DNA of 64,000 nucleotides, from positions 1 through 64,000 of the forward strand of contig NZ_JAGHQU010000011.1 in the NCBI RefSeq assembly GCF_017744135.1, given 5' to 3'. The DNA is from Endozoicomonas sp. G2_2. Its GTDB lineage: Bacteria > Pseudomonadota > Gammaproteobacteria > Nevskiales > Salinisphaeraceae. Positions within the stretch are counted from its first letter, which is position 1; every line of letters starts with the position of its first letter. The notes beneath the pieces were generated by a model. It saw nothing but the letters and a program-made list of their open reading frames with translations, was not told where the DNA came from and made no database searches. A program made the translations under genes and the position numbers. This document shows positions 9,034 through 31,112 of the stretch, piece by piece.

Positions 9034-9519
9034 TTAGATATCGAACCCCAGCCCGCTACATTCGGGCAGTAGGGTGCCGGAGAAGCCGACGTTGAACAGG
9101 TGCATATCCTTTGCGGCGGTCTTTGGGCAGTCGATAAAGTCGCGGTTCAAAGCGGGCTTATGAGCGGCGATCAGTAAAGATTCAATCACTGCGATCGTCG
9201 TCTTGCCGCCCACACGCATATCGCTGCGGCTGTCCCAGGGCACGCCGAAGTAAACCGACAGTCCCACGTGGTACCAGAACCTGCCACCGATATGCTCGGC
9301 AATGCGCTTGAGTACCCCCCGCCCTGAGTCGCTCTTTCGTGTCTGGCCGATATAGAGCAGCACGTTCGGGCCGTAGACGGGATGACGGCCATGAATGCAG
9401 TAGAGACTCGCGCCCTCTGCGACGTCTGGGGGTACATCTTTCGGCACCGTGTAGGCATCGCTTTCGCGGTCATAGCCAATCACGTGCGGGCCGTCCCATT
9501 CGATATCGATTACTCGCAC
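9034..9519 (-). CDS. GIY-YIG-like nuclease domain protein
   Basis: A 161-residue protein. The GIY-YIG hallmarks are recognisable though degenerate. LYCI near 39-42 replaces the first strand. LLYIGQT at 54-60 is the second strand with its Tyr-Ile-Gly. Arg 71-72 lies in the following helix. IESLLIAAHKPALN at 112-125 supplies the metal-binding Glu 113 and the terminal Asn. This matches stand-alone GIY-YIG proteins of phages and plasmids, so DNA strand cleavage is likely but unproven. It is followed in the same direction by a small membrane-protein gene sixteen bases upstream at 9535, suggesting shared transcription. Confidence 0.65.
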   Translation of the reverse strand: MRVIDIEWDGPHVIGYDRESDAYTVPKDVPPDVAEGASLYCIHGRHPVYGPNVLLYIGQTRKSDSGRGVLKRIAEHIGGRFWYHVGLSVYFGVPWDSRSDMRVGGKTTIAVIESLLIAAHKPALNRDFIDCPKTAAKDMHLFNVGFSGTLLPECSGLGFDI

Positions 9520-9534
9520 TCGCGCTCCTTCATC

Positions 9535-9957
9535 TCATTCTGTTGTGGGAGAAGACCTATCACCGCGGCCGCGGTCGGCGCGCAACTCCAGGCCTCGCTT
9601 GATGACATACACGACCAGTGCGACGACGAAGAACACCAGCAACAGCCATGCAATGCTCGACAGCGTGCCGATCAATGTTCTGTAGACCTCGAGGATCCAG
9701 CGGTCAGTCGTCAGCGACAGCGCGTTGGTCTCATGGAGCTGGGGCGTGATGTAGCGCTCGATTTGGCCAATCCGCACGCCGCCCGACACGCCGACAACAC
9801 ACATGGCGAAGTGCAGGTATCGACGCCAAGAGCTGGCCATCTCGCCCGGTGTGATCAGGTTCATGATGGCGCTGATAGAGCCGTTGAAGAGCCGGGCGAC
9901 AAGGGCGCTGGTAGCCAACGCCAGCAGAAAGGTCACGACGAGTAGGGCGATGAACAT
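9535..9957 (-). CDS. small integral membrane protein
   Basis: A 140-residue protein with a hydrophobic N-terminal segment (residues 1-24), a moderately hydrophobic segment near 47-62 and a strong one near 95-120 (SIAWLLLVFFVVALVVYVI). It ends in a charged, Arg/Asp-rich cytoplasmic tail. The N-terminal segment could be an uncleaved signal anchor. No family is recognised. It is the likely first gene of a pair with the GIY-YIG-like gene, in which case both share a promoter in the 93-base gap before the divergent SRAP gene at 10051. Confidence 0.6.
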   Translation of the reverse strand: MFIALLVVTFLLALATSALVARLFNGSISAIMNLITPGEMASSWRRYLHFAMCVVGVSGGVRIGQIERYITPQLHETNALSLTTDRWILEVYRTLIGTLSSIAWLLLVFFVVALVVYVIKRGLELRADRGRGDRSSPTTE

Positions 9958-10050: not shown

Positions 10051-10728
10051 ATGTGTGGACGTTACGGAAGAACAACAGCTGCGGCGGCTTTCGCCGAGCG
10101 TATCGGCGCGAAGCTCTCCTCGAATCTGGACGATCGGCCCGGCCATAATCTCCCGCCCGGCACATTCCAGCTGTGCGCGCTCATCAATCCCGATGATGGA
10201 GCGTTGACCCTGGGCTCGAGCTGGTGGGGCTTCATACCGAACTGGGCCGACAATACGAAGCTGTCACCCATCAATGCCCGGAGCGAGACCGCACACGAGA
10301 AAAAACTGTTCGCTCGTGCCTTCGAGAGTCAGCGGTGTATCTTGCCGGCCGATTACTGGGTGGAGTGGCAGCGCGATGGTGACCATAAACAGCCGTTCCT
10401 GATCCGACCCAAGCAAGCCGATCCATTTTTCTTCGCCGGGATCTGGAGCAAAGCCTCGCGCCTACCCAAGGACCACAAGGCCAGTGGCCAGGTGACATTC
10501 GCAATCCTGACCGGTCGGCCGAATGACGACATAGACCAGATCCACGATCGGCAACCACAAGCCCTCACTCTGGAAGGCGCCCACGAGTGGCTGAATCCCG
10601 ACAAATCAGTCGATGATCTGCAAGAGGTGCTCAGCGAGGGGCGGTACAAGGCCTATGAGCACTGGCCGATCGACCCCAAGGTCGGTAACCCGGCGAACAA
10701 CGACGCATCGCTGTTCGAGCCCCGCTAG
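10051..10728 (+). CDS. SOS response-associated peptidase family protein (YedK/HMCES-like)
   Basis: A 225-residue SRAP-domain protein. These proteins form a covalent link through Cys2 to abasic sites in single-stranded DNA and so shield them. All key positions are present: Cys2 right after the initiator Met (MCGRYG), Asn75 in the INARSE motif, Glu105 in DYWVEW, and His165 in QIHDRQP. The last motif is normally HDRMP, so Met is replaced by Gln here. The length fits the family. Its stop overlaps the 3' end of the convergent AP2-like gene by four bases. Plasmid-borne copies may protect single-stranded DNA during transfer or repair; that is inference. Confidence 0.9.
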   Translation: MCGRYGRTTAAAAFAERIGAKLSSNLDDRPGHNLPPGTFQLCALINPDDGALTLGSSWWGFIPNWADNTKLSPINARSETAHEKKLFARAFESQRCILPADYWVEWQRDGDHKQPFLIRPKQADPFFFAGIWSKASRLPKDHKASGQVTFAILTGRPNDDIDQIHDRQPQALTLEGAHEWLNPDKSVDDLQEVLSEGRYKAYEHWPIDPKVGNPANNDASLFEPR

Positions 10729-11819
10729 GTTGCTAGCGCGGCATGTGCCGTTGAGGGATGGTTGAATTGGACTTTCCAATCGCTGTAGATCGAAGGGTCG
10801 AATGGGATCCCAGCCTCGACAGCGTGCTCGTACTCTCGCCGATACGCGATGGCCGCTTCGAATGCGGCCAGATCATGCATCGCCGTGATCCGATGCTCGC
10901 GACCCGCGTTGAAACGGCGCGGCCGGCGTTTGCCATTCACGTAGACCAGCACTTCATAGGTTACCAGCGCAGATCGTCCCCGGCCGTCCTCGATCAGACG
11001 CCGGCACACGCCCTGGTATCCCGTGGTGCGATTTCGTGAGGTCGGAGCGCTCACCCGCCTGCGACGGTGCAGGCCCAGCTCCTCTTGCCAGTCCATGCAA
11101 CAAAGGATTGCGGCAACCCACGCTTCGTGCTTAGAACCGTAATGGCGAACATTGAAGCTCTGTCGGCGAATACGGCAATCCACGCTCGTTGTTGCAGTGA
11201 GCCAGCCATTGCCATGATCCTGGATGCTGCCACGATGCTCGAGCGCCCGCAGTTCGAACGGATCACCGCCGAACTGCTCATAGGCAAAGAGCATGAAGCG
11301 GACCCAGTCTGCTTCACGCAGTTGGCTGAGATGGCCATAGAAGCGACGCTCCCATTCGAGCCGCTTCCGAATGGCGTGTCGCAACGCGGCCTCGAGGCCG
11401 TATCGGTCAACAGAAAACCGCCTGGTATGCACCGTACCGTTCGCGTGATCCTTCCCTGTCGCGCTCACAGTCAAGCTTTTTACGCCCCTGGACTCTATGT
11501 GCGAGATCGTGACGCCCGCACGACCAAGAACTGAGCGAACCCTATGGGTGACGCCACGCACCGCAGGAAGAGGGCCAAGCTCACGCTCGCGCCCACGCCG
11601 ATCCACTCGAGCGCGATGGCTCATCGGGAGCTTCCGATCGCGATAGCGACGCGCGCTATTCTGAGCCTCTATAGGGCTCCTATTCGCTAGAGAAAAGGAC
11701 TTCGCCGGGCAACCGAGATCGTCAGGCAGATTGACGATATAAGCGCCTTGGTGGAAGACGATATACGGCAGGATTGGCAGGCCATGGACGTCGACATTGG
11801 AAGGGTTCATATTTCTCAA
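10725..11819 (-). CDS. protein with three AP2-like DNA-binding repeats
   Basis: A 364-residue basic protein. The C-terminal unit (about 268-335, GYQGVCRRL then YVNGKRRPRRFNAG then AFEAAIAYRREYE) has the AP2/ERF layout: a G-[YF]-x-GV strand, an Arg-rich strand, a phenylalanine strand and a helix starting with Ala. Two weaker units precede it, near 90-160 (RGVTHRVR to RKRLEWERR) and 190-250. A further short unit near 20-55 may be a fourth. Bacterial and phage AP2 domains bind DNA, often in homing endonucleases, but no nuclease motif is seen. It probably acts as a DNA-binding or regulatory factor. The start codon is not certain. Confidence 0.55.
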   Translation of the reverse strand: MRNMNPSNVDVHGLPILPYIVFHQGAYIVNLPDDLGCPAKSFSLANRSPIEAQNSARRYRDRKLPMSHRARVDRRGRERELGPLPAVRGVTHRVRSVLGRAGVTISHIESRGVKSLTVSATGKDHANGTVHTRRFSVDRYGLEAALRHAIRKRLEWERRFYGHLSQLREADWVRFMLFAYEQFGGDPFELRALEHRGSIQDHGNGWLTATTSVDCRIRRQSFNVRHYGSKHEAWVAAILCCMDWQEELGLHRRRRVSAPTSRNRTTGYQGVCRRLIEDGRGRSALVTYEVLVYVNGKRRPRRFNAGREHRITAMHDLAAFEAAIAYRREYEHAVEAGIPFDPSIYSDWKVQFNHPSTAHAALAT

Positions 11820-11863: not shown

Positions 11864-12913
11864 CTACGACTTCTTCCGTGATGCTCGCTTTCGTGACCCG
11901 GCGCGGGCCTGGCGCAGCTCCTCATTGAGCATGCTGATCGTCGATTGACGCTCATCGGCCAACGCCTGGGCCTTGCCCGCCTCAGCCACCTGAGAAGCGA
12001 GACTGCGTTCGAGTTCCTGCTCACGTGTCGCCGATGCATCGAGTTTCGACTGCACGTTCTCGAGTGATTCATGGAGACGGGTTCGATCCTGCTCGGCCAC
12101 GGTCAGCGCCTTCTGAAGGCCTTGATTCTCACCACCAAGGGCCCGCGCACGCTCCTCTGCGCGATCACGGGCTGTCGCCACTCTCTCGAGTTCTGCAGCT
12201 GCTTTGTCTCGTACAGTCTGAGTTTCGGCGCGAGCCGCCATTTCAGCTTGCCGGGCCTCATCTATCTGTTTCGCCCATGCCGCTTGCTGGCTTTCCATGC
12301 GCTCCTGGGATAGGCGCAATGCCTCCGTCAGACGCTCGCGTTCCGCCTCGACCTGGGCAATCTGGGTACGGCTCGTATGACGCACATGCCGGAGCTGGGC
12401 GGCGGCCTGTTTGCGATCATTCTTGAGCTGCTGGCCTAGTTCTTCCCGCTGCTGGTCGAGGTGGTGCGCCTGAGCTTGCGCTTTGGCCAGCTCCTCTTTT
12501 GTCTCATCGAGCGTGCCTTGTGTCTTGTCGAGCAGAATATCGAGACGTTGCGTCTGCTCCACAGCAGTCGTTGCTTTCGTCTGTGCTTCGGTCAGCTTGT
12601 CCTGAAATTCCTGTTCGCGCGCCTGCAGCAGCTCGCGTTCTTTTTCGAGATTCGCCTTGGCGTGTTCGCCGGCATGTCGCCACATCGTGCGTGCCGCGGC
12701 CACGACGGGATCCGGTAAATCGAGGGGCTGGCCTGTATCGAGCTGTTTACCGATTACAGCCCATTGCTCATGGATACGCCGCTGCAGGGTCTGCTGTGAT
12801 GCCGTGGTCCCCAACACCGATCGCACACGCGCGAGAGACGGGTACTCGCCCTCGACGAGGAGGCCTCGCATCGCCTCGAAAACACCATCGTCTGTGAGTG
12901 TAGTGCGCGTCAT
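11864..12913 (-). CDS. kfrA: KfrA-type plasmid DNA-binding protein with long coiled coil
   Basis: A 349-residue protein. Residues 1-85 match the KfrA N-terminal DNA-binding region (TDDGVFEAMRGLLVEGEYPSL, then LGTTASQQTLQRRI). Residues 85-335 are an almost unbroken alpha-helical coiled coil full of Glu, Gln, Arg and Ala, followed by a Lys/Arg tail. In IncP plasmids KfrA represses its own promoter and aids plasmid stability through its coiled coil. Its start overlaps the stop of the 108-residue gene upstream (ATGA, 12910-12913), so the two are coupled. Palindromes at 13254-13320 upstream of that gene are the likely operator. Its presence is a main argument for a plasmid. Confidence 0.85.
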   Translation of the reverse strand: MTRTTLTDDGVFEAMRGLLVEGEYPSLARVRSVLGTTASQQTLQRRIHEQWAVIGKQLDTGQPLDLPDPVVAAARTMWRHAGEHAKANLEKERELLQAREQEFQDKLTEAQTKATTAVEQTQRLDILLDKTQGTLDETKEELAKAQAQAHHLDQQREELGQQLKNDRKQAAAQLRHVRHTSRTQIAQVEAERERLTEALRLSQERMESQQAAWAKQIDEARQAEMAARAETQTVRDKAAAELERVATARDRAEERARALGGENQGLQKALTVAEQDRTRLHESLENVQSKLDASATREQELERSLASQVAEAGKAQALADERQSTISMLNEELRQARAGSRKRASRKKS

Positions 12914-13236
12914 GATCGTGGATCGTAGCCCATCGACGCCGGCTCAGGTGTCGGGATCTGGGCGATCGCGTCCGTGACCTTAGATGCGCCGATCGCGAAA
13001 TACCCAGTGAAACCGTACCCATCATGCGCGAGACCGTGCCACGTGTTCTCCGTGTCCCGGTAAACAACAGGCCTCGAACCCAAGCCATGCGATGTGCCGC
13101 GCAAGAAAGCGATTACGGCCTCCGCATCGTTCGTGACCGTGCGTCCAATGTCCTCATCCACGATCGCTATGTACTCCAGATCATCGTACGTGAGCACTTC
13201 GTGGGTAAACGTGCATCGCAAAGTCGTGAGGGTCAT
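12910..13236 (-). CDS. hypothetical protein coupled to kfrA
   Basis: A 108-residue acidic protein with no recognised domain. The sequence looks like a small mixed alpha/beta fold, with no signal or membrane segment. It is the first gene after the palindromic operator region at 13254-13320 and overlaps kfrA by four bases, so it is very likely co-transcribed and co-regulated with it. A role in plasmid maintenance is inferred only from this position. It could be an accessory of the KfrA system or an unrelated passenger in the operon. Confidence 0.65.
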   Translation of the reverse strand: MTLTTLRCTFTHEVLTYDDLEYIAIVDEDIGRTVTNDAEAVIAFLRGTSHGLGSRPVVYRDTENTWHGLAHDGYGFTGYFAIGASKVTDAIAQIPTPEPASMGYDPRS

Positions 13237-13253
13237 TTCTGATGCCTGTTATG

Positions 13254-13281
13254 TGTTACGTGTACCGTAACATACGTTACG
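13254..13281. promoter_or_regulatory. cluster of three GTTACG/CGTAAC half-sites, candidate operator
   Basis: TGTTACG (13254-13260) and CGTAACA (13266-13272) form an inverted repeat. CGTAAC (13266-13271) also pairs with GTTACG (13276-13281). The three half-sites repeat about every 10-11 bp, that is on one face of the helix, which is typical of an operator. They lie 18-45 bases upstream of the kfrA operon start at 13236. Confidence 0.6.
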
Positions 13282-13296
13282 TTTTTAGCGTGCTGT

Positions 13297-13320
13297 TGAC
13301 CATAAGTGTACTTATGGTCA
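13297..13320. promoter_or_regulatory. perfect 11-bp palindrome, candidate KfrA operator
   Basis: TGACCATAAGT (13297-13307) and ACTTATGGTCA (13310-13320) are exact inverted repeats around a central GT. A 24-bp near-perfect palindrome upstream of a KfrA operon is the expected form of a KfrA autoregulatory site. The assignment to KfrA rather than another regulator is inference. Confidence 0.6.
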
Positions 13321-13361
13321 GTAGGGTTTGCGCCGAAAAAATTTCCTCACCGGAGGTCGAA

Positions 13362-13529
13362 CAAGTAAACCTTTCTTGTTTCGCCAACTAAACCTTTGGA
13401 ACCGAGGGATAAAGGTTCAGTTGTAGTGCCATCAGCGCCGCGACCTTTCCAAAGGTTTACTTGCAAATCACAAATCGACCCGTCGTTAAGTCACTGATTT
13501 ATTGAGCGTGCATTCCAAAGGTTGTCTTG
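13362..13529. repeat. five iteron-like 17-bp repeats, candidate plasmid origin or partition site
   Basis: The consensus CAAGTAAACCTTTGGAA occurs on the plus strand at 13362-13378 (last four bases differ) and 13385-13401 (one mismatch). On the minus strand it occurs at 13407-13423 (weak), 13447-13463 (exact) and 13513-13529 (two to three mismatches). The stretch has no gene and is AT-richer than its surroundings. It lies beside kfrA and its operators. Such clusters serve as iterons for a Rep protein or as centromere-like sites. No Rep or ParAB gene is recognised in the window, so the binding protein is unknown. Confidence 0.55.
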
Positions 13530-13652
13530 GCTGCTCCAAGGCGTGAAGCAAGCCATCAGTGCTCGAATGCGTCCTTTCGACTACATGACTTGTTCGAAAC
13601 CGCAGGGCCATACTGGGCTGTGGGATGCCCTTGAACGTAGTAAGTTCGCAGG

Positions 13653-14699
13653 ATGCTCGGCTTTTCAAATGGCTATTTCGGATGGGCGGAGAACGCCAGT
13701 GGCACCATGGTCCATGTGGGTGAAGTCGAACGCGGCCTCGCCTGCGGCTGTTACTGCGTCACATGCAGTCGACCCGTTCTCGCACGCCAAGGCACAAAGC
13801 GGATCTGGCATTTCGCGCATAGGGCTGACACCACTTGCGAAGGTGAAAGCGCACTTCATCGAGCAGCCAAGGCAGTGCTCGTCGAAGCGGCAGAGCAGCA
13901 GCTGCTGATTCGCCTTCCATCGGGCCTGACTCCGAGGCTCGAGGCCGCAACCACCGAGTCACCCATAGGCAAAACCCGTAAGGCAGACGTACTCGCCACG
14001 ATCGGCGGTCGCTCATACGGAATCGAGATACGTGTGACCCATGCGAAGAATCAAGCGGCGCGCGATGACTACGCCGTAGCGGATGTCGAAGCGTTCGAGA
14101 TTGATCTCAGGAAGGTGCCGCATCACCTGGACCGCGGCGAGCTCACTCGGGCCGTATTGGACGGCGCAGACCGGCACTGGCTTTACAAACGCGGCCTACC
14201 GAATCGGACGCCTCGTGCGCATAGCGCACGCACTGCGAGACCGGCCACTCGACCTGAAAGTTACGAGGAGATCACGAACAAGGTTATCGACTATCTGACA
14301 AGCCGAAACGGTCAAAACGATCCATTCGTATCATGGCCGGTGATCCGGGCTGACGGCATTACCCGCCTGGCCGCATCACAAGCCCAATGGGAACGCGGCA
14401 CAGTGTCACCGAAGCTATATATGGTCCGGCGTCCGGGGATCTACACGAGTCGTGAGTCTGGCGGCCCGAGGCTTCGCATAGAAGGCAAGGTAGCCACACC
14501 TAAAGGCGTAGCTCGTGTCGATGTCGAGTTGGTCTTCGATATCATCTCGCCGTCAGCGGTTGAGCGCCCTACTTTGCTCATCGTGTGCCCCGGCATCCTA
14601 GTTGAGTCGAGCTGGCCAGGCGCCCTGTTCATGCAGTGGCACGGCATCGACTCGTGGCGAGACAAACTGACGTCGATCTACCACAGCACAGACGTCTGA
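13653..14699 (+). CDS. CoiA-like competence/nuclease-family protein
   Basis: A 348-residue protein. The N-terminal part shows the CoiA-type layout: a CYCVTC zinc pair near 33-38, then WHFAHRADTTC near 52-62 with further Cys and His. Next comes a restriction-endonuclease-like core with KTRKADVLATIGGRSYGIEI near 109-128, in which D115, E127 and the following R fit a PD-(D/E)XK site. CoiA proteins act on incoming DNA during transformation, and related proteins occur on mobile elements. The C-terminal 170 residues are unassigned. The start at 13653 overlaps poor upstream sequence, and a later Met is possible. Confidence 0.6.
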   Translation: MLGFSNGYFGWAENASGTMVHVGEVERGLACGCYCVTCSRPVLARQGTKRIWHFAHRADTTCEGESALHRAAKAVLVEAAEQQLLIRLPSGLTPRLEAATTESPIGKTRKADVLATIGGRSYGIEIRVTHAKNQAARDDYAVADVEAFEIDLRKVPHHLDRGELTRAVLDGADRHWLYKRGLPNRTPRAHSARTARPATRPESYEEITNKVIDYLTSRNGQNDPFVSWPVIRADGITRLAASQAQWERGTVSPKLYMVRRPGIYTSRESGGPRLRIEGKVATPKGVARVDVELVFDIISPSAVERPTLLIVCPGILVESSWPGALFMQWHGIDSWRDKLTSIYHSTDV

Positions 14700-14791: not shown

Positions 14792-15492
14792 GGGTCCATC
14801 CCCGCTTTCGGGGTGCAACTTGATGTGTGCCAGTGATGAAGAAATAGCGTTCGGATGATCCCCTCGGGCAGGGGGTGAAACGCGAACAGGCCCTCATGCA
14901 ACGCCATTTCAGGCGAATAACCCCCGCCGGACGGGGTGCGACGCGCTGGCTATGCACGCCGCTGCCTTTCTTTGGATAATCCCCGCAAGCGGGGTGGTGT
15001 GACTAGGCCAGCGTTCGCAGTAGCTCGAGCACGACCGGAAAATCCCCGCGAGCGGGGATGCGACGCTGCTTGATGATGCCGACGCCGGTGTTGAAGTCGG
15101 ATAATTCCCGCGAGCGGGGATGAGACCAGAACTTCGTTCCGGAGATGCCGTTGTCGCCGGGGTAATCCCCTGGTGCAGGGGGCACCTGGTCGCTCAAGTC
15201 AGGCATTTAGCCTCCATCGGGATGATCCCCGCGAGCGGGGGTGCGTCGGCATATCGCTGGTGCGCAAGCCGAGCATGACCGGATAATCCCCGCGAGTGGG
15301 GGGTGTGTCTTTGTAACTCCACGCCGAAAATATCGAAAACGCGGTTAATCCCCGCGAGCGGGGGTGCGTCGGATTTGATCCATTTCCAGTAGCGCGTAAT
15401 CACGGATAATCCCCGCGAGCGGGGGTGCGTCAAATGATTTCGGGGCCGCTATGATCTCGCGTGCGGATAATCCCCGCGAGCGGGGGTGCGTC
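14792..15492 (-). CRISPR. CRISPR array, 12 repeats and 11 spacers, type IV-A/I-E-like repeat
   Basis: Twelve repeats of about 29 bp have a regular 59-63-bp period (mostly 61), giving spacers of about 32 bp. Repeat starts are 14792, 14852, 14914, 14973, 15036, 15098, 15159, 15219, 15280, 15342, 15403 and 15464. On the minus strand each has a CCCCGC-TC-GCGGGG hairpin followed by the 8-base end ATTATCCG. This is the I-E-like form in which Cas6 cuts below the stem to leave an 8-nt 5' handle. The last four repeats, nearest csf4, are almost identical, while those towards 14792 are degenerate. The leader is therefore on the csf4 side and transcription runs with the csf operon. The csf4-array gap is only 58 bases. 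Confidence 0.95.
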
Positions 15493-15550
15493 TCTAATAG
15501 ACAAGCTCATGTAAAAGAACGGCAATCCCGGAGCACCAAAAAGCCACCGA

Positions 15551-17521
15551 CTACAGCGGCAACGCTTTGAGTGCATCCGATGGACGGACAACGTCGAGGA
15601 ACACGCGCCGAAACCGCTGTGGGATTGCGGCGGCCAAGCCTTTTAACTGCCCGATCGATTCACCGGCCTCTGATCGAAAGCGTGGATCCAGTATCACAAT
15701 CTCGGCGCTATCAGCCGGGTGCCTGAGAGCACGCCCGATACCCTGGCGCACGCGGTGAACAGACTTGGTGCGCATCTGGGCGTGTACCGTTCGATTCGCC
15801 TTGGCCTCGGACTCTACTCGACTCAGTCCACGCACCTGAAACGCCATCATCGTCATCAGAAGATGTGCCGGGTCGATTGACTGCGCCGGGTTCCGAAGCA
15901 AGACAACCCGTTTCCAGAACGTCTCGCCGCTTCGGCTCGGTGATAGCCCTTCCCATCCCGCCGGTGTGAGCAAGACGTTGTCATCGTTCATGCCGTGGGC
16001 GATCTCGTTCAAATCAGCGCCTCGAGGGTGGGTTACAGCTCTCGAGCGTGCTCTATTGGGCCAGTGTTCCAGCAAGCTATCCACGTCTCTATAGCTGCAG
16101 CACAGAACGAGGGTGCGACCGGGTGAGCCAGCAAGAATCTGATTCACAGCAAACCGTGCGTAGAGCGGATTCAATGCGAATCCCTCATCGTCGCGAATCA
16201 GAGGCACACACGGCGCAGTCGGCACCGAGAAGCGAAGCTGTCCGAACTTCTTCGCCTCGTGGCGTCTAAGCACGCCCAGACGCGCATCGCTCTGGTTGAT
16301 TCGAATTCGGGACAGCAGGTAGCGAAACGCCGGATCGTTAGCCGATCCGGACATATCGGACAACGTCGCGGACGTGAAAATCGTAATTCGCTGATCCAGA
16401 TCGTTGCGGATCATTGCACCCGCGTCTTCGCGAGCACATACCAGACGAGGGTGTCCCTGCACTGGCGAGTAGGATAGAACAAGGTTCTTTCGCCCTGCCC
16501 TCATTTCCTGTTCGATCATTCTCGCGGAACTACGAATGATGGCCCACGCAGCATGGTTCGCTGATAGATCCGGATCGGGTACGGGTGTGTGCTTGATCGA
16601 GACAAGGGCATCGAGGATCTCATCCCGGTCACGGTCACTGATCAGCATTGCTTGATCCGCGAGCTTCGGGTCGCGCTTGTGATGGAACAGGGCCGACCAG
16701 CGCTCGGCGTTCGTCTTGTAGCCCAGATTGCGCGCCACTCGCATGACGTTGTTGAAGCTCAAGCCATAGGACATGGCTTCTTCCGCAACATCCGGGAAAT
16801 GCTCGGCCTCGTCCACGATCAAGGCGACATCGCTTTCCGCATCATCAAGATCGGCAACACCTCCTCTCAGCAGATCCATCACCAGTAGTGACTGATTGAT
16901 TACGAGAATGTCCGCATCTCGTGCATCGGCGAAGGTCTGCTTGAGAACTTCAGGCAAGGGCTCCTCATGGCCAATCGAGATATCGCCCAGCCTTATGCCA
17001 TCCGGTAGCTCGTTCTCATCGAGATCAAGAAGACAGCCCTCCGACGTGAGTGCCCAGTGAGCCAGCCCGCGGGTTGAGGGCGGACGATTCGGATCATCGA
17101 CAACGTCGGCCAAGGTCTCAGCATCGAGGGCCAAAGCGAGCCGTGTGGGCGAGACGTAGTTACGCCGGCCCATTCGCGTGGCGATTCTCAATGGTCCGCG
17201 ACCGTTGTAGCGCTGGAAGCCGTTTATCAACTCGACGTTTCCCGGCGCGACAAGCTGGCGCTGTAGAGCGCGCGTGTACGTCGCGACCACGACACGACGC
17301 CGGTGCCCACGCGCGCCGGCAATCCAGTCGGCTGCACTCAGTAGATAGCCGAGTGATTTGCCCAGGCCAGTGCTGCCTTCAACGCAGTGGATGGAGCCCA
17401 AGCCGTGCTCGAAACAATCAGCGATCGACGCCGCGTACTCGATCTGAGCGGCGTTGTGCCGAAACGAAGGCACCCTGTTGGGTAGAACCTGATCGATATA
17501 GTCAGTCGCGCATGTGGGCAT
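15551..17521 (-). CDS. csf4: Csf4 / CasDinG helicase of a type IV-A CRISPR system
   Basis: A 656-residue superfamily 2 helicase of the XPD/DinG type. Walker A is EGSTGLGKS (48-56), motif II is DEAEH (237-241), and motif VI is QGIGRALR near the C-terminus. The four cysteines of the DinG/XPD iron-sulfur cluster are absent between Walker A and motif II; only one Cys is there. This agrees with CasDinG of type IV-A, which acts as an ATP-driven 5'-3' helicase needed for plasmid interference. The ATG at 17521 overlaps the csf5 stop by one base (TGATG). The open frame continues upstream, but there it only shadows csf5. It is the last gene before the array. Confidence 0.92.
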   Translation of the reverse strand: MPTCATDYIDQVLPNRVPSFRHNAAQIEYAASIADCFEHGLGSIHCVEGSTGLGKSLGYLLSAADWIAGARGHRRRVVVATYTRALQRQLVAPGNVELINGFQRYNGRGPLRIATRMGRRNYVSPTRLALALDAETLADVVDDPNRPPSTRGLAHWALTSEGCLLDLDENELPDGIRLGDISIGHEEPLPEVLKQTFADARDADILVINQSLLVMDLLRGGVADLDDAESDVALIVDEAEHFPDVAEEAMSYGLSFNNVMRVARNLGYKTNAERWSALFHHKRDPKLADQAMLISDRDRDEILDALVSIKHTPVPDPDLSANHAAWAIIRSSARMIEQEMRAGRKNLVLSYSPVQGHPRLVCAREDAGAMIRNDLDQRITIFTSATLSDMSGSANDPAFRYLLSRIRINQSDARLGVLRRHEAKKFGQLRFSVPTAPCVPLIRDDEGFALNPLYARFAVNQILAGSPGRTLVLCCSYRDVDSLLEHWPNRARSRAVTHPRGADLNEIAHGMNDDNVLLTPAGWEGLSPSRSGETFWKRVVLLRNPAQSIDPAHLLMTMMAFQVRGLSRVESEAKANRTVHAQMRTKSVHRVRQGIGRALRHPADSAEIVILDPRFRSEAGESIGQLKGLAAAIPQRFRRVFLDVVRPSDALKALPL

Positions 17522-18120
17522 CAGGCGGCCTCGTCGCGAAGCGCGCTGACGGTCGCCAGCTGGAGCAGGCCGCAGCCATAACCACGCCGGCGCCCAATGC
17601 CATCGAGATACGCTCTGGCAAAGGCGCTGACATCGTCGATACGAGCGGTGCAGCGGGCAGTGATCAGAGGGACCGTGAAACGCTTGTGGTTGAACTGCCG
17701 CAAGGTGATCAGGTGCGCCCAGTCGGGCATTTCGGCCAGAGCAAGCCCCGAGCGCTCGAACAGCCGCTGCGAGTAAGCGGTCCATTCTTCGGAGGGCAAT
17801 GTTCCTTCCTTTCTCGAATCGGGCCCAAATCGATGCAGTGGCAGCGACGCCAAGTCGATTGTCGCGTAATCGCCCTGCTCTACTGCGATGCGTCGCTCAC
17901 GCGAACCCTTGAAGGACCGGTCGGAACGGATGGTCAACAGCCACCGGCGCTCATCGAAGGGCTCAGAGCGGAAAATAAACGGCCGCTTCTCGATCTTCTT
18001 ATCGTCCGCGGTAGTCGAAAAGAGAGACCAGACATACTTGTGCAAGTCGTCTAGCGTCAGGCGATCGCCCTGCGGTTCGATACGAGCTAGGACTGTCGCT
18101 TCGTTATATTCGATGTTCAT
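17521..18120 (-). CDS. csf5: Csf5 (Cas6-like crRNA endonuclease)
   Basis: A 199-residue protein in the csf operon position of the crRNA-processing enzyme. The C-terminus has the glycine-rich RNA-binding loop of Cas6/RAMP proteins (GIGRRRGYGCGLLQL, 174-188). A histidine that could serve catalysis lies in the FNHKRF segment near 144. The predicted product would cut the I-E-like repeat hairpin of the adjacent array to leave an 8-nt handle. Csf5 and Cas6e cannot be told apart by eye. The gene overlaps csf1 upstream (ATGA) and csf4 downstream (TGATG), so translation is coupled. Confidence 0.82.
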   Translation of the reverse strand: MNIEYNEATVLARIEPQGDRLTLDDLHKYVWSLFSTTADDKKIEKRPFIFRSEPFDERRWLLTIRSDRSFKGSRERRIAVEQGDYATIDLASLPLHRFGPDSRKEGTLPSEEWTAYSQRLFERSGLALAEMPDWAHLITLRQFNHKRFTVPLITARCTARIDDVSAFARAYLDGIGRRRGYGCGLLQLATVSALRDEAA

Positions 18121-18944
18121 TGCGCCGCCTGTAAGATTTTTTCCATCTTCTTGTGTAGTCCGAGTCGGTCATGCGGGTCGCTTGGCAGGCGATGAACGAG
18201 CTCACGTGCGTTGGGCGTCTTTGCCAGCCAACGGGTTAAGGCGTCCTGATCTAGCTTGCCCCGCGCGGCAGTCGTGATCGGCTGCCAGAAGCCGCTCTTC
18301 TGTGCTTGCGTGACGTGATCGTTCTCCCGCGCCCACCTCGCCACGTCGAGCAATGCGGATAGGTCGGTACAGGAGGCGCCTGTGTCCGAGTTATCCCAGA
18401 GTTCGCGCAGATCAGTTGTCATGCGCAGTGCGCCCATGAGGACCAGCGACTTACGTCCGAAGTTGCTGATATAGACGAACCCCTCCTTCGGGTCGCCCAA
18501 ACGACCGTCGCTATAAAGCGCCATCAGCAGTGACAGTGGGTCGGTCCTGTAGACCCGGCCCTTCGCCGCGAGCGCGCCATCTTCCACGCGTAAGCGAAAG
18601 CCCTCGTTGACTGCGAGAAATAGCTGATTGCTACTCGTGATCACAGCACCACAGCCAGTCATCATGCCAAGCATGACCGGGACTGGGATTTTGTTCGGAC
18701 CGCGCCGGCTACCGATCCCCAGCTCATCGAATGATCCGATCTTCGGTGAGTAACAGGTCGTGCACAGATACTGCTTAGCAAACCCGCTGCCGTAAACATA
18801 GGGGATCGCCAAGGCGGAATCTTCGACCGAAGCCCACGGGCGACCACAACACGCGCACGCGCCTGTTTCCGGGGTGACCGACTGGAGATCTGCCACCTCA
18901 CGCAATCGCGTTGTCGCCGCGTGAAAGCGACTATAGGCATCCAT
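18117..18944 (-). CDS. csf1: Csf1, Cas8-like subunit with zinc finger
   Basis: A 275-residue protein, signature gene of type IV systems. A four-cysteine zinc-finger pattern is present (CACC near 30-33 and CTTC near 61-64), as in known Csf1 proteins. The rest is a mixed alpha/beta body with a helical C-terminal 90 residues, compatible with a Cas8-like large subunit that contacts the crRNA handle. The ATG at 18944 overlaps the csf3 stop (TGATG); a GTG one codon earlier is also open. The stop overlaps the csf5 start (ATGA). Confidence 0.88.
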   Translation of the reverse strand: MDAYSRFHAATTRLREVADLQSVTPETGACACCGRPWASVEDSALAIPYVYGSGFAKQYLCTTCYSPKIGSFDELGIGSRRGPNKIPVPVMLGMMTGCGAVITSSNQLFLAVNEGFRLRVEDGALAAKGRVYRTDPLSLLMALYSDGRLGDPKEGFVYISNFGRKSLVLMGALRMTTDLRELWDNSDTGASCTDLSALLDVARWARENDHVTQAQKSGFWQPITTAARGKLDQDALTRWLAKTPNARELVHRLPSDPHDRLGLHKKMEKILQAAQ

Positions 18945-19564
18945 CACGCCACCTCGCGTTGAACACGGCCGGGCCGCAGCACAGACACAACCTCGCCACA
19001 GGGCGTGAGTCTCTCCTGCGATGCGATGGGATCGAAAGGTAGATCACGGTCGATGTCGCCAGGCCAAGAACGACGCTGCCAGCCAGCCGTATCGTCAGGT
19101 TCGACCGAGACCACAGTGAAGCTACCGGCCCCGCGCGTATGGCCGCGCCCTATTCCATCGAGCAGTTCGATCAATTCGGCACAGGACTCGGGGTCACCAT
19201 CTCCATAGAAGACCAGATACGGCGATAGGTAGCCGGGATATTTGTTCAGCCGCGTCAGGAAGCGCCCACCCGCCTCGTCGATACGCTTGAGGGGATCAGA
19301 TACCAGGTGTCGCTCGAGCTGGTCGAAGCTCGATACGGTGGGTATCTTCGCCGCCGCAGCAGGCGCTTCAGGCGTTGAAACAAAGATAATCTGGCTCGCC
19401 CGATAACCCTGGACCTCGTCATCGAAGCTCAGGGGCAACTCGTGCTCGACGTCCCAACGACCCGCCAGACGGCAAGCCGCCTCGTGCAGTAACCCGTCCA
19501 GGCGCGGCGGAACGGTGGTCAGTAGCACAGGCGAGTGCAACGCCAACAGCATGCGGAACTGCAT
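18944..19564 (-). CDS. csf3: Csf3, Cas5-like subunit
   Basis: A 206-residue protein with a RAMP-like start (MQFRMLLALHSPVLL, a beta strand followed by a loop) and a Gly-rich region near 145-155 (GIGRGHTRGAGSFTV) typical of Cas5/Csf3. It caps the 5' handle of the crRNA in the effector complex. The ATG at 19564 is chosen because it directly follows the csf2 stop; the longer frame to 19681 only shadows csf2. Gene order and size fit Csf3 well. Confidence 0.88.
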   Translation of the reverse strand: MQFRMLLALHSPVLLTTVPPRLDGLLHEAACRLAGRWDVEHELPLSFDDEVQGYRASQIIFVSTPEAPAAAAKIPTVSSFDQLERHLVSDPLKRIDEAGGRFLTRLNKYPGYLSPYLVFYGDGDPESCAELIELLDGIGRGHTRGAGSFTVVSVEPDDTAGWQRRSWPGDIDRDLPFDPIASQERLTPCGEVVSVLRPGRVQREVA

Positions 19565-19565
19565 A

Positions 19566-20624
19566 TCAGCTCGCCGCCCGCGCACGCTCGACCGTGTAGG
19601 TCTGGAAATCGTACTCAGTGAGGCCGTCGACGAAGTTCTCAAATGCGCGCTCGAGTTCCTCGCCTTCGAGGACCAAGCCATCGGCTGATAGCTTGACCAC
19701 GCCTTTGCGCTGGGGCTTGAGCTTCATGGGGAGCCATTCAAGGACTTCCCATTCTGCGCTGAACTCTCCGAGGCCGGTATTACGATGGCCCCCGAGAAAG
19801 GGATGGCGCGCAAATTCAGCCAAGCCCAGCAGAAGCATACCCAGATCGGTATCGGTGCCGCTGATCAGCGTCATGCGATGGCTCATTTCGGAACCCGGTG
19901 CGATTGACTCGAATCCGGCCAGCGGGTGCTTGATCGACTCAGACGCCCCTTCACGCTCTTCCTTGATCTGGCGCTTCTGGGTTTCCTTAGCCTTGATCTC
20001 GTCGTTGAGTTTCTTGCGATCGGCCTTTGATTCTGACGTCGCAGCTTCGCGCTTGAGCTTTTTAATATCGCTGTCGAGGGTGGCGATATCGCTTTGCGTT
20101 TCGCGCGCATTTGCCAGCTGAGAGAGCAGCACGTCTCGATCTTCCGGCGATAGGTACTCAACCTCCTGCGAGTCACGCTCGAACATATCCGATCGCGCAC
20201 CCCGCCCTGCAGTCATGACATTGTCCTGCGAAGTACGCAGTTCGCCGACCGCCAAACGACCTGCGAGTTTCCACCGGCCAAACAGGTCCATGAGTGGATT
20301 GTTCTCACGCACCATAACCTGGCCTATCGGGTCCGCGAAGCTGCCGGCTTCATTGCTGGTCTCGCGCGTAGTGTCCACGCCCTCACCGAGCATATAGGCA
20401 TCGCGGAGCGTAAATACCTCGCTCTCTGGCACCCCACGGGCGTGTGCCAGCGCCTGACGTACAGCCCGATAACTGGCTTTGCGCAACGGCCCACGGAAGG
20501 TGCCCCCATGGAGCATGACTTCACCATGCGGGGTTCTGGGCAGGCCTTGATGATCAGGGTAGGAAACACTGATGGGTGAAACTGCGGTTACGGTGCCTTG
20601 AAGTCGAATCATCGTACGAACCAT
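19566..20624 (-). CDS. csf2: Csf2, Cas7-like backbone subunit with helical insertion
   Basis: A 352-residue Cas7-family protein that would polymerise along the crRNA. N-terminal RAMP strands (IRLQGTVTAVSPISV), the GTFRGPLRKA segment near 41 and the C-terminal HPFLGGHRNTGLGEFS glycine loop fit Csf2. Residues about 162-229 form a highly charged, Lys/Glu-rich helical stretch that looks like an antiparallel coiled-coil hairpin placed within the fold. I do not recall it as standard in the family. It is the first gene of the csf operon. A second in-frame ATG lies four codons in. Confidence 0.88.
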   Translation of the reverse strand: MVRTMIRLQGTVTAVSPISVSYPDHQGLPRTPHGEVMLHGGTFRGPLRKASYRAVRQALAHARGVPESEVFTLRDAYMLGEGVDTTRETSNEAGSFADPIGQVMVRENNPLMDLFGRWKLAGRLAVGELRTSQDNVMTAGRGARSDMFERDSQEVEYLSPEDRDVLLSQLANARETQSDIATLDSDIKKLKREAATSESKADRKKLNDEIKAKETQKRQIKEEREGASESIKHPLAGFESIAPGSEMSHRMTLISGTDTDLGMLLLGLAEFARHPFLGGHRNTGLGEFSAEWEVLEWLPMKLKPQRKGVVKLSADGLVLEGEELERAFENFVDGLTEYDFQTYTVERARAAS

Positions 20625-21317: not shown

Positions 21318-21410
21318 CGCATGTATGTAGGCGCCCTCTTCCACCTATTCTGGCTAGGTCATGCGCTGCATACTCAGAATTAGTCGATGCAGAGAGGGAT
21401 GTCATCACCG

Positions 21411-22502
21411 ATGAGTAACCCCCCGGTCAAAAAAATACACTCGCCTGTCACGACACCTGACCTGTCTCGTGCGGCAGTCCTTGACGCTGAGGTACGACTC
21501 ACCACGGCTCAAACAGACGTCGAGGCAGTGCGGGCTTGGCTACGAGCACGTGGGCAGCGCAGCGAGGCGACTTTCGATCGCTATGCCCGACAGGGACGTC
21601 GCCTGCTGGAGTTTCTGCATAGCCGCGGCGAATCATTCGCGACCATGACCATCGAAACCGTCCATGCCTACGAGCAGGCAATGATGGCCGGTCACGTTGG
21701 GTCGAAGCCTCTATCCAAGCAGTACGTCGATGAGGCCTCGGTTGTCCTGAGTTCGATGTTCTCTCTGCTGGTACAAAGCGAGTACATCAGGCGCAACCCT
21801 TTTGTTCTGCGAGAGCGAACCGAACCGACAGAGGACGATACATCGCTCGAACGCTATCTCGACAACGAACAGCTCGACGCCCTGTTCACTGAAACCGACG
21901 CACTGAGGGACGTTGACCCTCGCACAGAAGCCGGCCTGAAAGCGGCACGTACACGATTCCTGTTGCTCTGGATACTGATCACAGGCGCACGAATCAGTGA
22001 GGTTCTGAAGTCACCCATGAAAGGTGGTGTCGTGCTCGCCGACGACGGCTGGGTCTGGAAAATCGTTCGCAAGGGCAGGAAGAAAGGTGAGATCCCATTG
22101 CGAAGTGATGCGCTGGATGCCCTACGGGACTACCGACGGTGCTTCGGGTACGATTATTCCCTGCCGAGTGAGTATGAGGACGATGCCTTTCTGATCCTGC
22201 CGGTACGGGGCAAATCCATCAAGCCGCTCAGTCGAAGCATCATCTGGCGCGACCTGAAAGAGTTCTTCGCTCGAGCCTCAGCCCACCTGGATAGTCCAGA
22301 GAAAGCTGCCAAGATGCAACGTGCCTCGGCTCACTGGTTGCGCCACACGGCCGCGACTCAGCTGCTGAATGAAGGCGCGACCATGCGCTTTGTGCAGAAG
22401 CTACTCGGCCACAACCATGTCGGCACTACTTCCAGCATTTACGACCATCTTGAGCGCAAGGAATTCAGGCGCGAAATGGAAAAAGGTCGTCAATTTCGCT
22501 GA
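21411..22502 (+). CDS. tyrosine recombinase (phage integrase family)
   Basis: A site-specific recombinase of about 363 residues. Counted from the longer frame start at 21387, the catalytic set is complete: Arg202 (GARISE), His316-x-x-Arg319 (HWLRH), His342 (LLGHNH) and the nucleophile Tyr352 (SSIYDHL). An N-terminal SAM-like core-binding domain covers about 45-140. The role could be resolving replicon multimers or integrating the element; no attachment site was identified nearby. The start is uncertain: ATG codons lie at 21387, 21399 and 21411, with a GAGAGGG about 12 bases before the last. Confidence 0.88.
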   Translation: MSNPPVKKIHSPVTTPDLSRAAVLDAEVRLTTAQTDVEAVRAWLRARGQRSEATFDRYARQGRRLLEFLHSRGESFATMTIETVHAYEQAMMAGHVGSKPLSKQYVDEASVVLSSMFSLLVQSEYIRRNPFVLRERTEPTEDDTSLERYLDNEQLDALFTETDALRDVDPRTEAGLKAARTRFLLLWILITGARISEVLKSPMKGGVVLADDGWVWKIVRKGRKKGEIPLRSDALDALRDYRRCFGYDYSLPSEYEDDAFLILPVRGKSIKPLSRSIIWRDLKEFFARASAHLDSPEKAAKMQRASAHWLRHTAATQLLNEGATMRFVQKLLGHNHVGTTSSIYDHLERKEFRREMEKGRQFR

Positions 22503-24244: not shown

Positions 24245-24600
24245 CGGCTGTGACGATAGTCGCTGGGCCGCATACGAAGCTCTGGCGGTAATGCCCACAA
24301 TCCCCAGTTCTGGTTCTGTGCTGTCCGCTGTGCGGCCAGATAACGCGGATCATCGTTGTACTGGTTATATCGCCATGCATGACCGGCCTGAACCATCCAG
24401 TAATTCACGCAGCGACCGTTGACCCACACACGCCCGACAATGCGCCCGTACTGATCTCGATCGATCACCTCGACGCGTACTTCTTCGTCACCCAGAGCGC
24501 GCTCTAGCGCTTCACCCGCCTCCTCGCCGTATGCCTGACTCGACTCAGGCGCATCGATGCCCCACAGGCGAATCCTGGGCTCCTGGTTGCCGTCCTCCAT
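24241..24600 (-). pseudogene. thermonuclease (SNase family), 3' part separated by transposon insertion
   Basis: This holds the C-terminal two-thirds of a staphylococcal-nuclease-like enzyme. IRLWGIDAPES carries the equivalents of the catalytic Arg and Glu, and DRDQYGRIVGRV carries the second Arg. The N-terminal third, with the signal peptide and the DGDT calcium-site segment, lies 15.6 kb away at 40165-40292. The ATG at 24600 that opens this fragment comes from the 5-bp target duplication. Removing the transposon and one TCCAT copy restores the frame exactly, giving about 160 residues. Without the N-terminal strand and signal peptide, activity is unlikely. Confidence 0.92.
24596..24600. repeat. 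target-site duplication TCCAT, left copy
   Basis: TCCAT directly abuts the transposon's left inverted repeat and recurs directly after the right one at 40165-40169. Five base pairs is the usual duplication length of Tn3-family transposition. Confidence 0.95.
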
Positions 24601-24638
24601 GGGGTCAACTCACGAAACGGAAAAAATCGTACGCTAAG
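24601..24638 (+). repeat. Tn3-family left terminal inverted repeat (38 bp)
   Basis: It starts with GGGGTCAACTCACGAAACGG and ends in ACGCTAAG, the classical Tn3/Tn21 outer and inner motifs. It is identical over all 38 bp to the right end. The tnpA stop codon (TAG at 24634-24636) lies inside it. Confidence 0.96.
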
Positions 24639-27603
24639 CCTCGCGAGGCGTCCGAAGCGGTCGGAATCTGCCACGCTCGACCCGTTTATCCTGCTGCCAG
24701 ATATAGTCTCCGGTCAGATTGATGTGCTCCCAGCCCAACGGTGACAGGTGCGACAGCAGCGTGTCGTCGATTTCTTGCCCGGATTCGCGCAGTGCTTCAA
24801 CGGCTCGCTCTATATAGACCGTGTTCCAGAGAATGATGGCGCTCACCACGAGATTGAGTCCGCTGGCGCGGTAGCGCTGGTTTTCGTAGCTGCGATCGCG
24901 AATTTCACCCAGGCGATTCAAGAAGACGGCGCGGGCCAATGCGTTCTTGGCCTCGCCCTTATTCAAACCCACCTGCACGCGACGGCGCAGCTCGACGTTT
25001 TGCATCCAGTCGAGTGCGAACAAGGTGCGCTCGATGCGGCCCAGCTCGCGCAATGCCACAGCTAGCCCGTTCTGGCGCGGATAGCTGCCGAGTTTTCGGA
25101 GCATCAAAGATGCCGTTACCGTGCCTTGCTTTATCGACGCGGCCAGGCGCAGGATCTCGTCCCAATGTGTTCGGATGTGTTTGACGTTAACGCGTCCGCC
25201 GATCATGCCCGCGAGCGTTGGATATTGCTTGGCGTCGCCGTGAATATACAGCCGCCGGTCGGCCAGATCGCGAATACGCGGCGCGAAGCGATATCCAAGC
25301 AACTGCATCAACGCAAACACATGGTCGGTAAAGCCGGCCGTGTCCGTATAGTGCTCTTCGATTCGCAGGTCCGACTCGTGATACAGCAGGCCGTCCAATA
25401 CATGGGTGGCATCCCGCACCGTGGCATTGATGACCTTGGTATGGAACGGCGCGTACTGATCGGAGATATGCGTGTAGAACTGCACGCCCGGCTCCTGGCC
25501 ATACTTCAGGTTCACATGACCAGCAAACTGACCTCGGCCACCGGCTTTGAAATTCTGGCCGTCCGAGGATGACGTGGTGCCTTCGCCCCAGTAGACCGCG
25601 AACGGCTGGCGGAACTGGGCGTTGACCAGCTCGGCCAGCCCCGCTGAATAGGTCTCATCGCGGATGTGCCAGGCCTGGAGCCAAGTCAACTTGGCGTAGG
25701 TGGTGCCGGGACAAGATTCAGCCATCTTGGACAGGCCCAGGTTGATCGCATCGGCCAGAATCGTGGTGAGTAGTAGTTGCCGATCGCTCGCGATCGCGGT
25801 GCTTTTGAGATGCTTAAAGTGCTGCGTAAAGCCGGTCCAGTCATCGACTTCCAGCAGGAGTTCGGTGATCTTGAGGCGTGGCAACCGGCTATAGACCTGC
25901 TGCATCAACGCATCGACACTGTCGGGTACGGCGTTATCCAGCGGCGTGATTTTGAGGCGACCGGCGGACGTAATACCCGCCTCCGGTAACGCATCGGCGG
26001 CCGCCAGGCGTTCAACGGTGGCAAGCTCGTGCTCCAAAAGCGCCAACCGCGATTCCAGATAAATATCGCAATCGGTTTCAACAGCCAACCCGAGATTCTG
26101 GTGCGCACGCTGATCGGCGAAGCGTGTCGGCGGCAGTAGATAGTCCTCAAAGTCCTTGAATTGGCGCGAGTCCTGAACCCAGATATCGCCCGAGCGTAAA
26201 GCGTTCTTGAGCTCGGATAATACGCACAACTCATAGAAGCGACGATCGATCCCACCCGTTGTAAACACCAGGCTTTCCCAGCGCTTGCGTACGAAGCGGG
26301 TCGGCGCGACGTCCGGCACTTTCCGTGCTTGGCGCTGGTTCATGTCTTTCAACAATTCGATACCGGCGAGTAGATTACGCGCCGCCGGCGCGGCCTTCAT
26401 ATCCAGTGCTTCCAATAACGCCGGCGTATAGCGTCGGAGGGAATTGAAGCCGCTACCGATCAAGGCGAGGTAGTCGAAATCTTCCGACTGCGCCAGTTTC
26501 TCCGCTTCGGCGATGCTGTCGCTGAACGCCTGCCATGGCATGATCGCCTCAATCGCGGCGAATGGGTCGCTGCCGGCCTGTTTGGCATCGAGCAGAGCGC
26601 GCCCAACACGCGAGTACAGACGCACCTTATTATTGATGTCTTTGCCGGAGCGCTGGAATTGTTCCGCGTGCTTGCGCTTGGCCTTGTTAAACAGCGATCC
26701 TATGAAACGATCGTGCAGATCGATGATCTCGTCGATCAGCGTGGCGCGGGTGTCGAGGATGATCGCCACCAGCGTCGCATAGCGACGGGTCGGTTCCAGA
26801 TCGCGCAAGTGCTGTGCGGTCATCTGCCCGCCTTCGCGGGCCAGTTTCAACAGACGGTTCTGGTGGATGGCGTGTTCCAGCCCGGCCGGGATGTCGAGAT
26901 CGCGTACGGTCTGCAATCGTTCGAGGTGGATCAGAATATGTTTGGGTCTCGGCGGGCCAGGCGACTGGCGCAGCCAAACCAGGACACTGCTCGACCTCTC
27001 CTTGCGAATCGCCAGAAGCTGCTCAAAGGCGCGGCGATGGTGATCCGTTAATGATTCGGTCAGCGCCTCATACACGAGCCGGGTACCGCGCGTGAGCGCT
27101 TCGCTGCACACGCGCTCAAGGACATCGAGCGGCGGCAGGATGATGCGTTGTTGTCGTAGCATCTCGACCAGCGCTTCAGCCAGAACGATGCCTCGGTCTG
27201 TTTGTTGAGCGAGATCAGCGATCGGATCAATGAGACGCCGATAATCGACGAGGCTGAACGGCGACAGGTTCAACCACGCCCGCAATTCCGCCAAGTGCTC
27301 ACGTCGTGTTTCAGGCCGCTGGGCATACTGCGACCAAATGTCGGGCTCGATATCCAACTGTTGGCCGATAAGGGTCAGCAAAGACGCAGGCGGTGCGGCA
27401 TCGGTCGGCAGCGCGATGCCGGGATAGCGCAGGTAACACAATTGCACCGCGAAACCGAAACGATTGTGTTGGCCACGCCGCTGTCGGATCACCGACAGGT
27501 CGGGCTCGGAGAACGCGTAGTGTCGGATGAGTTCGTCGTCCGTCGCCGGGAAGGCGAGTAGGCTGGCGCGTTCGGCGGCAGTCAATAGGCGGCGACGGGG
27601 CAT
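24634..27603 (-). CDS. tnpA: Tn3-family transposase TnpA
   Basis: A 989-residue DDE transposase of normal family length. The N-terminal region ([19 protein letters not shown]) is the conserved DNA-binding start. The catalytic acids fit the Asp in SSSDGQNF, the Asp in [13 protein letters not shown] and the Glu in [11 protein letters not shown]. It would bind the 38-bp ends and perform replicative transposition to a cointegrate, resolved afterwards by TnpR. It is intact, with its stop within the left end and only two bases between its start and the tnpR stop. No frameshift is seen. Confidence 0.97.
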
Positions 27604-27605
27604 CG

Positions 27606-28166
27606 TCAGGCATCCGTCTTCAGGTATTGATAGAGCGTTTCACGACTGATACCAAAATCCCGAGCCAGCTTGGCTTTTTGCTCGCCATTCGCGACGCGCT
27701 GCCGAAGCTCAGCAATCCTGTTGGATGAGAGGGCTTTCTTGCGCCCCCGATACGCTCCACGCTTTTTAGCCAAGGCGATGCCTTCGCGTTGACGCTCGCC
27801 AATCAACGCGCGCTCGAACTCGGCGAATGCACCCATGACGGACAGCATAAGATTGGCCATCGGCGACGCCTCGCCGGTGAAGGTCAGATTCTCTTTGACG
27901 AACTCGATGCATACGCCGCGTTCAGTCAGCGCATGGACCAGACGGCGTAAATCGTCGAGATTCCGGGCCAGGCGGTCCATGCTATGAACGACGACGGTAT
28001 CGCCCTCCCGGACAAAAGCGATCAGCCGATCCAACTCGGGCCGGTGGGTATCCTTACCCGATGCCTTATCTGTGAATACCCGATCCACCGCAACCTGCTC
28101 AAGCTGGCGATCGGGATTCTGATCGAGGCTGCTAACTCGGATATAACCAATGCGGTGACCGTCCAA
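27606..28166 (-). CDS. tnpR: serine resolvase TnpR
   Basis: A serine recombinase of the resolvase/invertase family. The catalytic Ser follows GYIRV near the N-terminus. The [18 protein letters not shown] and [22 protein letters not shown] signatures are complete, and a C-terminal HTH ([18 protein letters not shown]) binds res. The TTG at 28166 gives 186 residues, the usual length, and is preceded by GGGAAGG. The frame is open to another TTG at 28226, but that would run through the res-like repeats. No ATG exists in frame before the conserved core, so translation relies on a weak start. Confidence 0.92.
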
Positions 28167-28186
28167 AATGCCTTCCCGAGCCAAAG

Positions 28187-28255
28187 TGTCAGAATGAACT
28201 CTATGACCCTTGGTAACGTGCGTCAATGATTATTAAATTTGACCCTATTCTGACA
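28187..28255. promoter_or_regulatory. candidate res site of the transposon
   Basis: Inverted copies TGTCAGAAT (28187-28195) and ATTCTGACA (28247-28255) flank an AT-rich stretch just upstream of tnpR. This is where Tn3-family res sites with their resolvase subsites lie. The tnpR promoter should be within it. Subsite boundaries were not resolved. Confidence 0.55.
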
Positions 28256-28442
28256 GTTTTACAATCCGACCCCTGACGTCCGGATAGGGTGTGCTTTACC
28301 TTGACGCACTAGCGCAAGGTATTGCGTTCCCAGTAGTCGAGAGGCGTAGCGTTAGGTACGGATTCAAGCTCGGCCAAGTCCAAAATCCGGGCACAAAAGT
28401 TAGGTGTGCCCGGGTGATCGCTTATATAGTGCATTCTGCACA

Positions 28443-29078: not shown

Positions 29079-29171
29079 GATGTCACTCCTATGTTCTGAG
29101 ATTGAAAATTCGATAATGACGACTCTGCTTGCGCGTCACATAACTACCTCCTGAGATAGCGATAAGTATCA

Positions 29172-30800: not shown

Positions 30801-30875
30801 AGGAGATTCGCTCTTGAGCCGGGCTCGCTTTCAGTGATTCAGGGGAATGATGGGCCCATCGGATCCTGGAGTTGC

Positions 30876-31112
30876 TCAACTACGCAGGTATTTGATCAGC
30901 GCCACGATGGCTAGCACCAGCACGACAAGGACAAGGAGTACGAACAATAGCCAGGCGATCATCATCGGGCCGCCCATCATCCCGCATTGCATCATCGATC
31001 CGTTCATCAGATCGCCGTCGCCCATGCGGCCCGGGCCGGTCTGACCCGCGGCAGGGGCGATCCCCACGAGGACGCCCAGCACGCTCAACAGCAATGCTAC
31101 GAACAGTTTCAT
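30876..31112 (-). CDS. small Met-rich membrane protein
   Basis: A 78-residue protein from the ATG at 31112 (an ATG at 31124 and the open frame to 31268 are alternatives). It has a cleavable signal (residues 3-22, ending PAAGQ), a Met/Cys/Gly segment (MNGSMMQCGMMGGPMM) that could bind copper, and one strong transmembrane helix (WLLFVLLVLVVLVLAIVALI) near the end. Such short proteins occur with copper oxidases in metal islands. A periplasmic copper-handling role is inferred from composition and position next to the multicopper oxidase. Confidence 0.65.
   Translation of the reverse strand: MKLFVALLLSVLGVLVGIAPAAGQTGPGRMGDGDLMNGSMMQCGMMGGPMMIAWLLFVLLVLVVLVLAIVALIKYLRS

Follow-up and report, generated by a model that had tools for sequence, protein, structure and literature searches.

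A five-copy, mixed-orientation repeat array beside a kfrA operon, possibly a repetitive operator

What reads five copies of one short word that lie, in both orientations, beside a kfrA operon? The question is raised by positions 13362-13529 of the window, by which we mean the whole stretch of 64,000 nucleotides that was analysed (bases 1-64000 of the 100,307-bp contig C2, in a genome of 33 contigs). The initial annotation described five 17-bp iteron-like repeats at this place, suggested iterons or parS-like sites and named KfrA, or a Rep encoded outside the window, as the protein that might recognise them. The repeats sit between divergent units, with the kfrA operon running leftward from 13236 and a CoiA-like gene (13653-14699, plus strand; Pfam CoiA_N) running rightward on the other side.

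All five copies are where they had been placed, two forward and three reverse within 168 bp. The unit that they have in common is a 13-bp core, CAAnnnAACCTTT, and not the 17-mer, which is unchanged in one copy only, that at 13447. The two forward copies lie at 13362-13378 (CAAGTAAACCTTTCTTG) and 13385-13401 (CAACTAAACCTTTGGAA), the three reverse copies at 13407-13423 (CAACTGAACCTTTATCC), 13447-13463 (CAAGTAAACCTTTGGAA, the exact match to the 17-mer consensus) and 13513-13529 (CAAGACAACCTTTGGAA). Copies 1, 2, 3 and 5 differ from the 17-mer at 4, 1, 6 and 2 positions; in copies 1 and 3 the core is complete and the right end is divergent. Ten of the 13 core positions are fixed across all five copies, and GGAA directly follows the core in three of them. 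Spacing from centre to centre is uneven (about 23, 26, 40 and 66 bp). The stretch is gene-free and AT-richer, as had been noted, with a G+C content of 44.6% against 59.4% for the contig.

The array is real and clearly non-random. In the 3.73-Mb genome the core occurs exactly five times, every time inside the array, whereas base composition predicts about 2.8 occurrences genome-wide and 0.07 in the 100-kb contig C2. Shuffles of the intergenic region never attain the observed number and clustering of copies (0 of 60). The weight-matrix scores of the five sites range from 21 to 28 bits, and nothing else on C2 exceeds 12.0; a site at position 30048 of contig C14 (CAAGTAAAACCTTGCTA) scores 14.4 bits but lacks the core. 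A search for the repeat elsewhere, which the annotation had proposed, thus shows that it is not scattered over the genome.

Two palindromes accompany the array, again as originally noticed. Palindrome B (13297-13320, TGACCATAAGTGTACTTATGGTCA) is the nearer one; two related elements have, upstream of their kfrA operon, a 22-bp palindrome with which it can be aligned. Palindrome A (13254-13272, TGTTACGTGTACCGTAACA) lies between palindrome B and the start of the operon and is less clearly preserved in relatives. The operon opens with a gene for a 108-aa protein of no known family (12910-13236, minus strand), 36-42% identical in two relatives. It is followed by kfrA (11864-12913, minus strand; KfrA_N of Pfam, 1e-17), the product of which has a coiled-coil tail, and by a gene for an AP2-like protein (10725-11819, minus strand) with a weak AP2-domain match. 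A 31% identical homologue of the latter is found in the G015 operon, where it stands between the 108-aa gene and kfrA, so the order of the operon varies. Matches to the 108-aa protein, with internal stop codons reported in both, are also present on contig C4 (317-541) and on contig C176 of G010 (9355-9579); they are possibly a decayed relative.

Counted from the first gene of the operon, the array extends from 126 to 293 bp upstream, a region in which no clear promoter was found. A scan for sigma-70-like promoters gave none in the array region, though the promoters of this organism may differ. A structured RNA was considered and rejected: the single match to Rfam, a microRNA family, scored 23.8 against a threshold of 80, far below it, and is probably an effect of the inverted copies.

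KfrA is the first candidate for a reader, since the array adjoins its gene. KfrA of the IncU plasmid RA3 offers a real precedent: its operator OK consists of five 9-bp repeats, three opposed to two, which are unique on the plasmid, and four of the repeats suffice for full repression; binding of KfrA to them is needed for stable maintenance (PMC7783346). The two have in common five repeats of one word in mixed orientation, in a single place on the plasmid and beside the kfrA operon. If KfrA also read the array described here, the latter would be a repetitive operator or a centromere-like site on which KfrA polymerises, as in RA3. The array weakly resembles one half of palindrome B (best ungapped p 0.07), and a sixth weak site overlaps that palindrome; both would fit such a reading. 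There are differences, however. The RA3 units are 9 bp long and packed around the kfrA promoter, whereas here a 13-bp core is spread over 168 bp, not clearly over the promoter, and begins at least 42 bp beyond a separate palindrome.

Related kfrA operons were detected in two genomes, G015 and G016. Each of the three operons has upstream of it a 22-bp palindrome (within TGACCATAAGTGTACTTATGGTCA here, imperfect in G015), and a partly conserved promoter-proximal stretch comes next. The KfrA segment TTASQQTL, predicted to be the recognition helix by analogy with the helix-turn-helix mapped in RA3 (PMC7783346), is identical in all three proteins. Comparison with shuffles brought out no clear repeated motif upstream of either relative's kfrA operon, and AAACCTTTGGAA is absent from the G015 and G016 genomes. 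Because the relatives keep both the palindrome and TTASQQTL but have no such repeats, the palindrome rather than the array is most likely what KfrA reads. The palindrome alone may suffice: the KfrA operator of R751 is an extended inverted repeat (PMC7821693), and palindrome B is of the same kind, whereas the array has no counterpart there. To judge from these alignments, palindrome B is likely the KfrA operator, a neighbour of the array rather than a part of it. We therefore regard KfrA, the protein that the annotation had put forward, as an unlikely reader of the array. On this reading the conserved mark of this KfrA group is the neighbouring palindrome, not the repeats.

The other protein that had been suggested is a Rep, and here the nature of the replicon matters. 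Contig C2 carries a PRTRC cassette (PRTRC ParB and ThiF above curated cut-offs), a TraU-like gene and a type IV-A CRISPR system, and its ends do not overlap. In a species of the same genus, the 180-kb contig C6 of G016 has PRTRC genes, a kfrA operon, a parA-parB pair and a Rep_3-related gene together, which makes it very probable, by analogy, that C2 belongs to a PRTRC plasmid. The 32-kb contig C14 has, at 19.8-29.1 kb, parA, a parB-like gene, two Rep_3 genes, parS-like palindromes (GAGTTTCAGGTGAAACTC) and seven 35-bp repeats, and we infer that C2 and C14 are perhaps one plasmid.

Several other features of the window can be mentioned. The CRISPR system occupies 14794-20624 (DinG/Csf4, Cas6-like, Csf1, Csf3 and Csf2, with about a dozen degenerate repeats in its array). 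A Tn3-like transposon region at 24591-32419 is 99.96% identical over 7.8 kb to the plasmid-like C6 contig of G016, which points to recent transfer. Genes for a PhnC/PhnD-type transporter adjoin one for a D-2-hydroxyacid dehydrogenase at 33980-37449, an arrangement suggestive of phosphite use. The protein encoded at 43914-45824 matches the PADLOC model for type IV methyl-directed restriction (3.7e-89) and is a possible defence gene product.

A scan of C2 for repeated 10-mers returned three clusters only: the array at 13.4 kb, the CRISPR array and one at 93.1-93.6 kb. The last of these (93,093-93,614) is an iteron array of eight copies near ATGTGAACGGATTTGGGAT, all in one direction; to its right are words like AATAAAGTCTGTC, with a transposase-like gene beyond them. 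Two copies of this word stand on C14, immediately before the Rep_3 gene at 27534-28805. The second Rep_3 gene of C14 (19835-21361) has its own one-direction repeats, of the GGTGTAAGAAATAA type, after which come the seven 35-bp repeats, towards parAB. On the C6 contig of G016, at least twelve one-direction iterons lie upstream of rep, so a single direction is common to the three Rep_3 iteron sets of this plasmid family. As an iteron set the array at 93 kb is stronger than that at 13.4 kb, and its cognate-looking Rep_3 gene is on C14.

Could the array at 13.4 kb nevertheless be a third iteron array? In appearance it is iteron-like, with several imperfect copies of a short word, about 17 bp long, clustered in an AT-richer, gene-free stretch of plasmid DNA. 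A genome with two Rep_3 genes and several arrays may well contain a multi-replicon mosaic, and iterons that lie away from rep can exert incompatibility. The array would then serve as an accessory origin or be the relic of one, or control copy number as an incompatibility element; its Rep would have been lost or gone unrecognised. No Rep gene was recognised on C2, which extends to the contig what the annotation had said of the neighbourhood; a genome-wide search for the Rep_3, RPA and TrfA families yielded two Rep_3 genes, both on C14 and each beside a repeat other than the array, and no Rep of the other two families. The Rep_3 iterons of this plasmid family adjoin a Rep_3 gene or share their word with a set that adjoins one, and they run in one direction; the array has neither property and consists of a different word in mixed orientation. 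No DnaA-box-like site is present within one mismatch in 13201-13700, and GC skew, which the annotation had proposed as a guide to the origin, falls steadily along the incomplete contig without a turn at 13.4 kb; the 93-kb array likewise has no DnaA-box-like site, which makes this a weak test, and shows no clear turn of the skew either.

Each recognised Rep_3 gene thus has other, one-direction iterons. This largely amounts to an origin elsewhere with its own rep and iterons, the outcome that the annotation had named as counting against the origin reading; some caution is due, as the rep gene and the 93-kb array are on different contigs. The main origin of replication was considered for the array and is weakened as a candidate by the 93-kb array and the C14 Rep_3 genes; the array is probably not that origin. 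An accessory or incompatibility role as a third iteron set we consider improbable as well.

The array was also compared, as a motif, with other site families. Against the Rep iterons of the plasmid it gave p 0.33 and 0.91, against the 35-bp repeats by parAB p 0.82, and against the G016 iterons p 0.70; the value for the parS-like boxes, p 0.027, is that before correction for six comparisons. The idea that the array is the same word as another site family of the plasmid was therefore rejected. A gapped likeness to the 93-kb iterons, GTRAAC..TTTGGRA, was also discarded, as it needs a 2-bp shift and places GT on positions that vary among the array copies. Nor does the array look like parS, the other form that had been suggested: its core is not palindromic, and the ParB-box palindromes stand beside parAB on C14.

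We also looked for relatives of the array itself. Among 369 genomes of the class the core is present as scattered singletons only; plasmid records gave chance-level matches only, and viral contigs gave single matches and other, regular tandem repeats. No second array was seen in any of these three sets. A search of genome contigs with the direct-pair pattern returned, among the matches listed, single matches and other regular tandem repeats only. Since no relative was found, the array cannot be tied to a gene by conservation. Further CoiA-like matches are present in the same genome, on contigs C9 (49,284-54,161) and C12 (36,982-38,025), 31-45% identical to the one beside the array. The upstream stretches examined of these genes have none of the repeats, and a standard coiA operator was rejected on this account.

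A site of DNA processing can be imagined as well: arm sites of a recombinase, an array flanking oriT, or a relic of an earlier insertion. A tyrosine recombinase is encoded 8 kb away (21387-22502), and in single-stranded DNA the opposed copies could pair as a hairpin (z -2.1). That folding is modest, however, and a consequence of the repeats as such; neither a recombinase core site nor a relaxase or nic-like feature was recognised next to the array, and the contig that encodes a 47% identical recombinase in G016 has no such array. We think such a role quite improbable.

The explanation that we tentatively prefer, though with somewhat less than even confidence, is that the array acts as an operator of several sites, to which one plasmid DNA-binding protein other than KfrA binds cooperatively and by which the divergent intergenic region is controlled. 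In this model the five CAAnnnAACCTTT sites, whichever way they point, would be filled by several copies of the protein along some 168 bp of AT-rich DNA; the CoiA-like promoter, the upstream side of the promoter of the kfrA operon, or both, would thereby be repressed or activated. Protein binding, cooperativity and transcription as the output are what we infer here. With the five genomic copies of the core all in one place, the reader would serve this locus only, as a local regulator would. The position between divergent genes fits this, and mixed orientation with uneven spacing suits an operator better than it suits the one-direction iterons of the family. RA3 OK shows that an operator can have this very architecture (PMC7783346), KfrA itself already has a conserved palindrome next door, and the motif is unlike the Rep iterons, the 35-bp repeats and the G016 iterons. 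Against an operator speak the negative promoter scan, the further CoiA-like genes without such repeats in the upstream DNA examined, and a length of 168 bp with a 66-bp gap, which is long for a simple operator. Conservation would be the best sign of function, and the searches above returned no relative of the array.

A bolder suggestion is that a plasmid DNA-binding protein of a hitherto undescribed sort, e.g. the product of the AP2-like gene in the kfrA operon or a Rep that escaped recognition, targets the array; it would read a new word, CAAnnnAACCTTTGGAA, and form on it a mixed-orientation, multi-site complex important for plasmid maintenance. We hold this to be rather unlikely. Whatever its reader is, the array is new in its word and ordinary in its kind, and it reveals no new replication system. 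If the array is indeed an operator, it would be another repetitive, mixed-orientation operator beside a KfrA module, in this case on a large type IV-A CRISPR plasmid, and it would offer a clean, single-locus target for fishing out the protein that reads it.
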